Part shown: piece by piece, positions 36,579-40,112 of the stretch
Layout: each line of letters opens with the position of its first letter
How positions within the stretch are numbered: the first letter of the stretch is position 1
Source: an uncultured OCS116 cluster bacterium
GTDB lineage: Bacteria; Pseudomonadota; Alphaproteobacteria; Rhizobiales; TMED25
Assembly (NCBI GenBank): GCA_902632055.1
Contig: CACPAS010000007.1
Coordinates: forward strand, 1 to 47,577
Direction of reading: 5' to 3'
Length of the DNA stretch: 47,577 nt
Notes under the pieces: model-generated
Told to the model about the DNA's origin: nothing
Databases searched by the model: none
What the model saw: only the letters and a program-made list of their open reading frames with translations
Position numbers and translations under genes: made by a program

Positions 36579-37082
36579 TCACTTACTTGTCTCTTTCATA
36601 AATTCTTTTAGTGATACAATCTCGGCAGTTTTTTCATATTCAACTTTTTTTTCTTTGCCCGCAGCCATAAGATTTTCATTTGCCAGTTCGTGATTCAGCT
36701 CAATTTCGTGCTTCTCTTGTCGCGATTTTAACATAAAATCAATACCAAAATTTACCGCTGGATCAAAAAATCTAGTTAGTGCAGAGTAGGGAATAACAAT
36801 TTTTTCTGGCTTGTTATCAAAATGCAGAATTACAGAGAAATGATCTGATTTTATCTCAAGCTCTCTAAATTGATGTTGAAGTACAATTGTCATCTTATCT
36901 CTAAATTTATTCTTTAAACTTTTTGATATTACAACGCCATTCTCATTTGTTAAAAAGGTCAGATAAATATGGTGTTCACCAGGCAATCCGTTATCTTTTT
37001 TTATTTTTTTAAGTACATCCATAACGACGTTAATCATGGAATTATTAATAATTTTGTCATAACCAATGAGATCTTCTGTCAT
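36579..37082 (-). CDS. sspB: ClpXP adaptor SspB, alphaproteobacterial type
   Basis: [83 protein letters not shown]; upstream of fumC as in other alphaproteobacteria. Confidence 0.9.
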
Positions 37083-37116
37083 TTATAAATTCTCAATATC
37101 ATTTAATTTACTAATA

Positions 37117-37470
37117 TTAGTTTTCGCCAAACCATTCCCAAATAACACTTGCCATCACATCACAATCTGTTTCACCTGCTGAAATAACGGCCGCGGCACC
37201 GGTAGCACCTCTTTCCCAAGCCAATTCCTGCCTTTCATTGAGATGTCCTAACTCATCTGAGTAGCGTTCGAATCTCGGGCTAATCATCAATCTATCAATA
37301 ACTGTATCGTAATACTGGTTATCAAAACAATACTCTTCATACGTAAAAATTTGTGTCCATACCCCGCCCAAAACGGCAATCTCTTCGTTAGCGACTTCTA
37401 CATCATGAAATGCAAAGCTAGAATTAACGAGAAGGATGGATGAAATTATAGTTTTTATAATTGTTTTCAT
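37117..37470 (-). CDS. Hypothetical secreted protein (117 aa)
   Basis: Signal-peptide-like N-terminus MKTIIKTIISSILLVNSSFAF; two Cys in the mature part (EEYCFDNQ, ETDCDVM); no recognised family. Confidence 0.7.
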   Translation of the reverse strand: MKTIIKTIISSILLVNSSFAFHDVEVANEEIAVLGGVWTQIFTYEEYCFDNQYYDTVIDRLMISPRFERYSDELGHLNERQELAWERGATGAAAVISAGETDCDVMASVIWEWFGEN

Positions 37471-37615
37471 AGACCGTCCTCTGTCTAATATTTTTTTGTT
37501 ATTACAATAACACTAAACAAAAATATAAAAATTAAAATAATATACTTATATTCAAAATAAAATATACCAACAGTAACTGACACTAACTGTTATGCGTGAA
37601 TAACAAAAACCCATA

Positions 37616-38686
37616 TTAAGCCAAATCTTGATAGTCAATTTGATGTTTTGGAATTCTATTGTCTGTTCCAAATAACATATGTTTCGACATATTTTCCCTA
37701 TATTTGCTTGCCGGTACTTCTAACCCAACAGACTCTGCAACCTGCCTAATTAACATTGGATTTGCACCACAACAAACACCAAGATAATTTATTCCGATAT
37801 TATACGCATCTTTTGCAAATTTCCCAATTTCATACCTGTTGCATTGCATTGGGTCCAAGGCTGTGGGGAATGGAGTTTTATGTGGCGAAGGACAGCTGCA
37901 ACCATTATGGTCAGGTAGGTTGAAGAAAGTAGGGTTTGATCTTGTGGTTCGATAATTAATAGGCAAAGCAGCCACATGACAACTAACTGCCTTCCTAATC
38001 TTTTTTATGTATGGCATCATAGTATTTGGGCCTCTGAAACAATTCATACCAACAACATCCCCTCCAAGCTGCTCGAGCTCTTTACAAGTATCGATAATGG
38101 AGACGCCATCTCTCATTATATTTTCACCCATTGGTGCGATTGTTATAACGCATGGAAGTCCTGACTTTTTCATACTTCTTAAGGCTTCGAATGCCTCTTC
38201 TGCATAGTAGAAAGTTTCACCTATTAAAATATCAGCATCTTCATCAACAGCCCAACCGATCATCTCATCAAACATTTTCCTTACTTCATGATTTTGGCTG
38301 GTATCCTTATCATTCCATATATTTGAGTTAGATATATTTCCCGCCATAAGGTTCTTTTCCTGTCCGTCCGGTGTATCATCCGCAACTTTTTTAGCAATTT
38401 TTAATGCTGACCTATTAAGCGGTTCAAGAAGATGTTCTCTATTGATAATCTTCATTTTTTCACGATGACCATTATATGTAAAAGCTTGCACAATATCGGA
38501 GCCGGCATGCTGGAAATCTCTGTGTAAACTCTCCAATACATCTGGTCGATCAAGTGCTACCATTGGAACAAATTCACCAGAGGCCATATAACCTCTTCTT
38601 TCTATTTCAAATAGAAAACCCTCAGCACAAATAACAGGCCCTGAATCTAATCTATCAATTAAACTTTTCTTTATTTCTTTTTTCAT
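37616..38686 (-). CDS. Betaine--homocysteine S-methyltransferase-like protein (BHMT)
   Basis: SGPVICAEGFLFEIERRGY, VQAFTYNGHREKM, GETFYYAEEA, VVGMNCFRGP, GVCCGANP zinc motifs; downstream of SAM riboswitches. Confidence 0.9.
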   Translation of the reverse strand: MKKEIKKSLIDRLDSGPVICAEGFLFEIERRGYMASGEFVPMVALDRPDVLESLHRDFQHAGSDIVQAFTYNGHREKMKIINREHLLEPLNRSALKIAKKVADDTPDGQEKNLMAGNISNSNIWNDKDTSQNHEVRKMFDEMIGWAVDEDADILIGETFYYAEEAFEALRSMKKSGLPCVITIAPMGENIMRDGVSIIDTCKELEQLGGDVVGMNCFRGPNTMMPYIKKIRKAVSCHVAALPINYRTTRSNPTFFNLPDHNGCSCPSPHKTPFPTALDPMQCNRYEIGKFAKDAYNIGINYLGVCCGANPMLIRQVAESVGLEVPASKYRENMSKHMLFGTDNRIPKHQIDYQDLA

Positions 38687-38689
38687 TTT

Positions 38690-38748
38690 ATTCTCCTTTT
38701 TAGTGCTTTGACAGTTGTCAGGTGCACAATTTGGTTAAATCACCTGAT
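38690..38748 (-). promoter_or_regulatory. SAM-V riboswitch overlapping the BHMT ribosome-binding site
   Basis: Minus: TCAGGTGATTTAACCAAATTGTGCACCTGACAACTGTCAAAGCACTAAAAAGGAGAATAAAATG. P1 CAGGTG/CACCTG, core GATTTAA, and pseudoknot GTGC with GCAC placed next to AAAAAGGAG (Shine-Dalgarno). Confidence 0.87.
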
Positions 38749-38755
38749 TTTTTGT

Positions 38756-38783
38756 AAAAAAAAACCACCTGGGAAATAGGTGG
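38756..38783 (-). terminator. Intrinsic terminator between SAM-II and SAM-V elements
   Basis: Minus: CCACCT-ATTTCCC-AGGTGG-TTTTTTTTT, a 6-bp stem followed by a 9-T run. Confidence 0.85.
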
Positions 38784-38795
38784 CTCGGTGGAGAA

Positions 38796-38850
38796 CATCT
38801 ATTTAGCAGGTTTTGTCACGCGCCCGCAATTTGACTTAAATCAGCGCAAT
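38796..38850 (-). promoter_or_regulatory. SAM-II riboswitch
   Basis: Minus: TTGCGCTGATTTAAGTCAAATTGCGGGCGCGTGACAAAACCTGCTAAATAGATG. Shares the SAM-II signatures GCGCTGATTTAA, ATTGC, GCGCGTGA and GCTAAA, with P1 GCGC/GCGC. Confidence 0.9.
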
Positions 38851-38854
38851 GTAA

Positions 38855-38883
38855 AACATACATGATTAATCGATCAGAATCAA
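38855..38883 (-). promoter_or_regulatory. Candidate promoter for the riboswitch-BHMT transcript
   Basis: Minus: TTGATT-17 nt-TATGTT, which would place the start of transcription at about the first base of the SAM-II aptamer. Confidence 0.45.
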
Positions 38884-38930
38884 ATGATATCTTAAATACT
38901 GAGATCAAAATTGAAAATTAATGTATTTAT

Positions 38931-39200
38931 GGGGGCGTTCTGTTGCCAGGTGCCCCCAGACCCCGCCGTATCTTGCTAGAGATAAGGACTTAAGTTTCGG
39001 TGCTCAAGCTGACTATGCAGCTACTGCGACCGGAGCATAGTTGTCATTTGCAACTATAAAATTAGCCCGATAACGGTGGTACAATACCGAGTAAAAGGTA
39101 GCCCTTTACGCTCTCGTCGATCCTGTTTCGCCCCCATGATTTTTATTGGTGGAGGCGCCGGGTACCGCCCCCGGGTCCGATAAGTTTATTTTGACGCCAA
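38931..39200 (-). ncRNA. ssrA: Transfer-messenger RNA, circularly permuted two-piece alphaproteobacterial type
   Basis: Minus order: acceptor 3' part ACCCGGGGGCGGTACCCGGCGCCTCCACCA (CCA end at 39147), 11-nt intervening ATAAAAATCAT, then GGGGGCGAAACAGGATCGAC (from 39135). Tag ORF at 39013..39051 = ANDNYAPVAVAA*. GGGGGCG/CGCCTCC pairs with G3.U70. Ends in GGGGGCACCTGGCAACAGAACGCCCCC. The upstream edge of the acceptor piece is approximate. Confidence 0.93.
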
Positions 39201-39275
39201 TTTATTACTATAGCTCAAAGAGCAGAACTATAATAATCCCAAATACGTATCAAATAAAGTTTATTATAAATTTAT

Positions 39276-39300
39276 TTCACACTTCGCATGCGCTTGTGAA
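39276..39300. repeat. Nested inverted repeat upstream of thyA
   Basis: TTCAC-ACTT-CGCATGCG-CTT-GTGAA: perfect 8-bp palindrome inside 5-bp outer arms, 17 nt before the thyA ATG. Confidence 0.6.
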
Positions 39301-39317
39301 TCAGTCATAATTGAAAA

Positions 39318-40112
39318 ATGAAACAATATTTAGATTTATTAGAGCACATCATTCAAAACGGTGAAAAAAAGGATGATCGTACTGGAACTGGTACAATTTC
39401 TGTGTTTGGTCATCAAATGAGATTTAATCTTCAGGACGGATTTCCACTTATCACAACAAAGAAGCTTCATCTAAAGTCAATTATATATGAACTTATTTGG
39501 TTTCTATCAGGGGATACGAATATTAGTTTTTTGAAGGATAATGGCGTCTCAATTTGGAATGAATGGGCAGATCCTGATGGTGACTTGGGTCCGGTTTATG
39601 GAAAACAGTGGCGTTCGTGGGATTGCAAAGATGGAAGATCCATTGATCAAATATCAAATTTAATAACCAACTTAAAAGAATCGCCGCATTCAAGAAGACA
39701 TATAATCTCAGCTTGGAACGTGAGCGATGTTGAAAACATGGCACTTCCACCGTGTCACTGTTTATTTCAATTTTATGTATCAAACAATAAATTAAGTTGT
39801 CATTTATACCAGAGATCAGCTGACGTATTCTTAGGTGTACCATTCAATATTGCTTCGTATGCATTACTCACTCACATGATCGCTCATGTATGCAAATTCA
39901 AGGTTGGCGATTTTGTTCATACATTGGGTGATGCGCATATATATTCAAATCATCTCGAGCAAGTTAGAACCCAGCTTGATAGATCTCCTCTTGGATTACC
40001 AACAGTATCATTGAACGAAAGTGTGACGGATATATTTAACTTCAAATATGAGGATATCACCATTTCTAATTATGAAGCTCATCCTCACATTAAAGCTAAA
40101 GTTGCTGTATGA
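39318..40112 (+). CDS. thyA: Thymidylate synthase
   Basis: [79 protein letters not shown]. Confidence 0.98.

Follow-up and report, generated by a model that had tools for sequence, protein, structure and literature searches.

The SAM-II/SAM-V architecture on the betaine-homocysteine S-methyltransferase gene (bhmT) of SAR11 reportedly goes back to Poiata in 2009. A table of Meyer et al. 2009 (PMC2704228) includes the bhmT tandem, and 149 tandems were counted in 2022 (PMC9481103). In Pelagibacter, both the bhmT transcript and the protein are raised under sulfur limitation, and the KD values are 1.2 uM for SAM-II and 120 uM for SAM-V (PMC5069961). In the full-length RNA studied by Feng et al. 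2024, SAM-II was silent and could be rescued by linker-directed oligonucleotides, a behaviour termed puzzling; neither SHAPE nor earlier in-line probing gave a SAM-II response to SAM in the full-length Pelagibacter RNA, and the words 'antiterminator' and 'anti-terminator' appear nowhere in the main text of that paper (PMC11508383). SAR11 has neither MetH nor MetE nor the split synthase and presumably depends on Bhmt, whose use as the single enzyme has been proposed for SAR11 only (PMC12478193, 2025).

We analysed a bhmT locus in the window, by which the whole stretch of 47,577 nucleotides is meant, and found its switch to be a further case of the architecture already known on SAR11 bhmT. It is probably a SAR11-type bhmT leader, a SAM OFF switch with two stages, that was acquired together with its gene by horizontal transfer. 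What is new is the move of the switch with the gene into a host outside SAR11, the persistence of its structure in that host, and a covarying putative antiterminator in the family.

Tandem SAM-II and SAM-V elements upstream of bhmT

On the minus strand, positions 38852-38690 hold a SAM-II aptamer, an intrinsic terminator and a SAM-V aptamer running into the Shine-Dalgarno of bhmT, which is the order that defines the tandem SAM-II/SAM-V bi-mechanism riboswitch (SAM-II before the terminator and SAM-V after it, covering the ribosome binding site; PMC9481103). The preliminary description had named all of these elements at this place on a BHMT gene and had noted that SAM-V and SAM-II/SAM-V tandems are known from marine bacteria, as is borne out by the literature (PMC2704228, PMC5069961, PMC9481103, PMC11508383). 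The same three-part arrangement was present in nearly all fetched leaders of 80 BhmT relatives, almost all SAR11, that reached far enough upstream. The window shares with the SAR11 bhmT tandem the element order, the linker terminator with 9 T, the SAM-V placement over the Shine-Dalgarno and bhmT itself, with 74-78% nucleotide identity across the whole block. Unlike the SAR11 tandem, it lies in a host of another order in the class, is flanked by tmRNA and a 117-aa ORF, and has a unique linker, GTTCTCCACC, and a shorter antiterminator.

The SAM-II aptamer (38798..38852, minus strand) has its P1 at 38848-38843/38824-38819 and its P2 3' strand, GCTAAA, at 38807-38802, and has the P1, GATTT, TTGC and GCTAAA core in common with the SAM-II riboswitch (RF00521 / RF01726); its outer P1 pair has changed from A-U to U-G. 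In an Rfam scan of the leader, RF00521 scored 24.2 bits on 38857-38782, under the gathering score of 36, and the best RF00521 matches in the three SAR11 genomes behind fetched loci were likewise sub-threshold (22.7-32.2 bits), which makes this cut-off uninformative for the SAR11 lineage. We built a covariance model, R1, from the SAM-II elements of 32 SAR11 bhmT leaders with the window left out. This model scored the window copy at 65.2 bits (E 1.9e-16, 38852-38798), so that the match is not due to chance, and upholds the SAM-II aptamer of the preliminary description. Thus the element is a SAR11-type bhmT SAM-II by homology, and not a member by the Rfam threshold, and is predicted to bind SAM. 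The Rfam models that had been proposed as the check therefore divide, with SAM-V above its cut-off and SAM-II below.

The SAM-V aptamer (38690..38754, minus strand) matched RF01826 over its full length (model positions 1-66) with 50.6 bits against a gathering score of 41 (E 2.3e-5 in the 47.6-kb scan), which identifies the second SAM-II-superfamily pseudoknot noticed earlier. It shares the P2 strands TTGTGC and GCACTAAAAAGGAG and the Shine-Dalgarno placement with the described SAM-V riboswitch (RF01826; structure by Huang and Lilley 2018, PMC6061858), and its P1 (UCAGGUG/CACCUGA) is by reading fully paired, better than P1 of the nearest SAR11 leaders. The 3' strand GCACTAAAAAGGAG (38706-38693) includes the Shine-Dalgarno GGAG (38696-38693), as had been claimed, with a spacing to the ATG (38686) of 6 nt rather than the 9 given before. 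Weak Rfam matches of the leader to preQ1-II, Yfr10, freshwater-2 and Mu-gpT-DE were far under the cut-offs and were rejected.

The window-specific linker GTTCTCCACC (38787..38796, minus strand) is unique among 77 leaders and combines a second CCACC with TTCTCC, complementary to the Shine-Dalgarno GGAGAA. In the full-leader MFE structure, linker GTTCTCC, which occurs in the window only, pairs with the Shine-Dalgarno GGAGAAU, and such pairing could in this folding model affect stage two (translation). The second CCACC noted in the preliminary description exists (38791-38787) and is absent from every other of the 77 leaders, hence not conserved; its competition for the terminator arm is speculative. 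SAR11 loci such as L003, L004, L036, L047 and L065 were seen by reading to have the SAM-V GGAGAA followed by a hairpin with 3' arm TTCTCC, whose partner could be either the SAM-V GGAGAA or a second GGAGA before bhmT, which suggests a putative decoy Shine-Dalgarno platform at these loci.

Other arrangements of SAM riboswitches were also encountered. Four species (L128, L129, L130, L136; family f97, about 1.4 Mb) carry a SAM-I/IV element (57-66 bits) followed after about 30-40 nt by a SAM-V-like element (34-43 bits), the pair sitting directly before an OmpW-family gene; SAM-I/IV combined with SAM-V does not figure among the tandem types in the available part of PMC9481103. In three presumed SAR11 loci, SAM-II (R1, E 3e-5 to 4e-3) stands directly upstream of SAM-V, separated from it by a short terminator-free linker, before a metY-like gene (L126 1444-1488, L127 1440-1487) or a MmuM-like gene (L137 1442-1486); for sites of this type the cited literature gives SAM-V alone. 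SAM-II upstream of SAM-V (41-43 bits with R1) was also seen in other families with genomes of 2.1-2.5 Mb (L134 1526-1348 and L133 2279-1501, both minus strand).

Terminator and covarying putative antiterminator

The intrinsic terminator occupies 38756..38786 of the minus strand, with the hairpin at 38786-38762 and the T run at 38764-38756. The hairpin has 9 pairs including wobbles, 6 of which are the CCACCT/AGGTGG pairs noticed earlier, and is followed by the 9-T run likewise recorded then; its predicted stability is -11.3 kcal/mol, and 0 of 200 shuffles were equally stable. In SAR11 leaders, CUAAAGCG, which comprises the SAM-II P2 3' strand and three nt, is complementary to CGCUUUAG in the terminator 5' arm and loop. 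The putative antiterminator so formed is represented in the window by the 5' strand AAATAG (38799..38804, minus strand), overlapping SAM-II P2, and the 3' strand CTATTT (38774..38779, minus strand), overlapping the terminator 5' arm and loop; both strands are supported by covariation in 42 leaders and the nascent-transcript MFE, and the 5' strand also by tree-corrected pairs. As the antiterminator strand is the conserved GCUAAA strand of SAM-II, the aptamer and the antiterminator would be mutually exclusive.

Pairing held in 89.9% of the antiterminator-helix cells across the 42 leaders. Column 55/80 was CG in 23, AU in 18 and GU in 1 and unpaired in none, and column 54/81 was GC in 20, UA in 10 and AU in 2. 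P1 and the antiterminator jointly had 33 double-changed cells, against 12.6 in shuffled alignments, none of 500 of which reached 33, and 0-3 in slid controls. On the BhmT tree, each side of column 55/80 underwent nine changes, and 7 of 7 independent pairs on supported branches were concordant (sign test p 0.016), while in column 54/81 six to eight of ten changed together and none in the opposite sense; this tree is a gene tree, and leader recombination could inflate the count of independent changes. Against the terminator 3' arm, column 80 was UA in 19, GC in 13, GU in 2 and unpaired in 8, so column 80, never unpaired in the antiterminator, has preserved its pairing there more faithfully than in the terminator. 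The predicted antiterminator between the SAM-II P2 3' strand and the terminator arm and loop thus covaries across SAR11-type leaders, a link between SAM-II and the terminator that the preliminary description missed. It could be the reason for the silence of SAM-II in full-length RNA in vitro, where the linker would capture the SAM-II strand at equilibrium.

When the nascent RNA of the window was folded up to just before the GGUGG arm, the MFE structure contained AAAUAG/CUAUUU, and the fold as a whole was not unusually stable (z 0.27). The window antiterminator has 6 pairs (-4.9 kcal/mol) and is shorter than in the SAR11 leaders; as the terminator is far more stable (-11.3 kcal/mol), antitermination would need to be kinetic.

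The assignment of SAM-II to termination and SAM-V to translation, made in the preliminary description, is supported by comparative evidence and the literature, and the direction of switching is predicted as follows. At low SAM, the SAM-II P2 3' strand (CUAAAUAG) would pair with the emerging terminator arm and loop (CUAUUU), and this antiterminator would delay the terminator and let the polymerase read through. At high SAM, the SAM-II pseudoknot would hold the P2 3' strand, the GAGCCACCU/AGGUGGUUU terminator would form and transcription would stop. Transcripts that escape would meet SAM-V, whose SAM-bound pseudoknot would draw the Shine-Dalgarno GGAG into the P2 helix and block translation. Since BhmT uses glycine betaine to turn homocysteine into methionine, SAM would repress its own supply line.

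As SAM-II is unresponsive in the full-length Pelagibacter RNA, stage one may have little effect or operate only during transcription. The same silence in vitro (PMC11508383), together with an antiterminator cut down to 6 pairs in the window, would fit an arrangement in which SAM-V is the sole regulator, the SAM-II unit a non-switching relic and the hairpin a constitutive attenuator. We consider such a relic improbable in view of the antiterminator covariation across SAR11 and of the pattern of conservation in the window. Relative to the seven nearest leaders, SAM-II is 88%, the terminator 93% and SAM-V 87% identical, whereas the adjoining linker and spacer have fallen to 47% and 37.5% and the third codon positions of bhmT to about 50%, which argues that the leader RNA has been kept by selection. 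The two-stage switch, with a SAM-II stage at termination, is the preferred reading.

Probable import of the switch and gene into a host outside SAR11

The regulated gene, bhmT (37616..38686, minus strand), encodes a SAR11-type betaine-homocysteine S-methyltransferase of 356 aa (PF02574, E 1.7e-34). The protein has the S-methyl_trans fold, matches mammalian BHMT structures (E about 1e-46) in an alignment that includes the three Zn cysteines, and groups with SAR11, so it is a predicted enzyme of the SAR11 type. It is 71-83% identical in amino acids to the fetched SAR11 proteins, and shares with the SAR11-type Bhmt (PMC12478193) the three Zn cysteines and 81-83% identity to the nearest SAR11 proteins; unlike that Bhmt, it is located outside SAR11. 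In a tree of 79 BhmT proteins it fell within SAR11, where eight SAR11 proteins form its sister group (support 100/97), and its branch was long (0.54); therefore the immediate donor is unsampled or the transfer is old. Among BhmT relatives outside SAR11 with 64-67% identity, a cobalamin riboswitch (L148, L149) or a SAH riboswitch (L161) was seen upstream.

The gene lies in a stretch of about 1.34 kb (37567..38910, minus strand) which by blastn is missing at the syntenic site in same-genus relatives. Within it, the block homologous to SAR11 extends between the 5' end of SAM-II and the stop codon of bhmT (37615..38855, minus strand; about 77% nucleotide identity). Just upstream of SAM-II we noticed by eye a weak, putative promoter-like TTGATT-17-TATGTT (38855..38883, minus strand), below the scan threshold, at the position where the nearest SAR11 leaders, also by eye, have TTGAAA...TACGTT. 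The flanks belong to the host. On one side are the alphaproteobacterial permuted tmRNA (38928..39262, minus strand; RF01849, 283 bits), found at the same place in relatives and mostly 92-94% identical in the closest, and thyA (39318..40112, plus strand; 75-92% identity in 11 of 11 relatives). On the other are a conserved 117-aa ORF (37117..37470, minus strand; same ORF in L103, L104) and sspB (36579..37082, minus strand; 47-83% identity in 11 of 11 relatives). The sspB/thyA neighbourhood is kept in almost all relatives, and sequences matching 39400..38911 and 37566..37000 adjoin, with a spacer of about 57 bp, in L103, L105 and L108, and nearly so in L107 (blastn); in six same-genus genomes the site between tmRNA and the 117-aa ORF is free of bhmT. 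An unrelated ORF of about 158 aa with no Pfam match stands in the spacer after tmRNA in L104 (2522-2998) and L106, so this spacer holds varied inserts.

SAM-V was found in none of 11 same-genus, 2 same-family and 47 sampled same-order genomes. In the 11 same-genus genomes SAM-II was not found with R1 and bhmT was not found, the best homologues being 20-24% identical. The group with the strongest SAM-V matches (1.2-1.3 Mb, metY downstream) was taken as SAR11, and it shares only the class with the window genome. The latter belongs to a small-genome family (0.9-1.6 Mb), the other sampled genomes of the order having about 2-8 Mb. The host is thus not SAR11, and the whole unit of switch and gene appears to have been imported; both points had been missed in the preliminary description. 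Transfer from SAR11 is the simplest reading. As for a viral vector, no BhmT relative was found in IMG/VR and the matches in phage records were all below 26% identity. Base composition was uninformative as a sign of import, since the block and the DNA around it have equal GC.

An assembly or binning chimera, by which the bhmT block would be foreign to the genome, might be suspected from an assembly of 42 contigs and 77% completeness, the plenty of SAR11 DNA in sea water and the absence of the block from the other same-genus genomes examined. However, the block is internal to a single contig and is flanked left and right by host DNA, at the exact syntenic spacer, a chimera would require two breakpoints precisely in the spacer between tmRNA and the 117-aa ORF, and the nearest SAR11 locus found is only about 78% identical to the block, which makes an artefact very unlikely. 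Just as implausible, in our view, is a cassette that both groups inherited from a common ancestor and that the rest of the genus has lost. The patchy distribution of BhmT across the class would agree with such losses, yet the window BhmT sits deep inside SAR11 (100/97), the cassette is absent in 13 same-genus and same-family relatives, and the other two members of the order with BhmT (67% and 54%) have a SAH riboswitch or no riboswitch detected. 

Methionine supply of the host

The B12-binding methionine synthase domain was not found in the closest relatives (G001, G004, G005, G007, G009, G010) or in G002, and MetH-sized proteins with this domain were present in G003, G006, G008 and G011; the MetE C-terminal domain was absent in 12 of 12 genus genomes. 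Close relatives have a protein resembling homocysteine S-methyltransferase (L091; about 307-311 aa), of which a truncated copy stands at the left edge of the window. As the window genome (G000) is 77% complete, the absence of a native gene from it is weak evidence. Judged from gene content, the imported bhmT may restore a lost methionine synthase step, with benefit to the host.

We give roughly even credence to a fuller account, in which a self-regulating SAR11 methionine module, complete from promoter to stop and needing no host regulator, would have entered a streamlined lineage after the loss of its methionine synthase, and in which the SAM-II stage would act through the conserved antiterminator that captures the P2 strand, this capture being the unexplained linker effect in the full-length RNA. 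The locus offers a clean case of a riboswitch moved with its gene between bacterial orders, with a bhmT-free site for comparison and a measurable retention of RNA structure. It extends the range of the SAR11-type Bhmt beyond SAR11, against its proposed confinement (PMC12478193), and the covarying putative antiterminator would provide a specific and testable answer to the inactivity of SAM-II in the full-length tandem RNA (PMC11508383).
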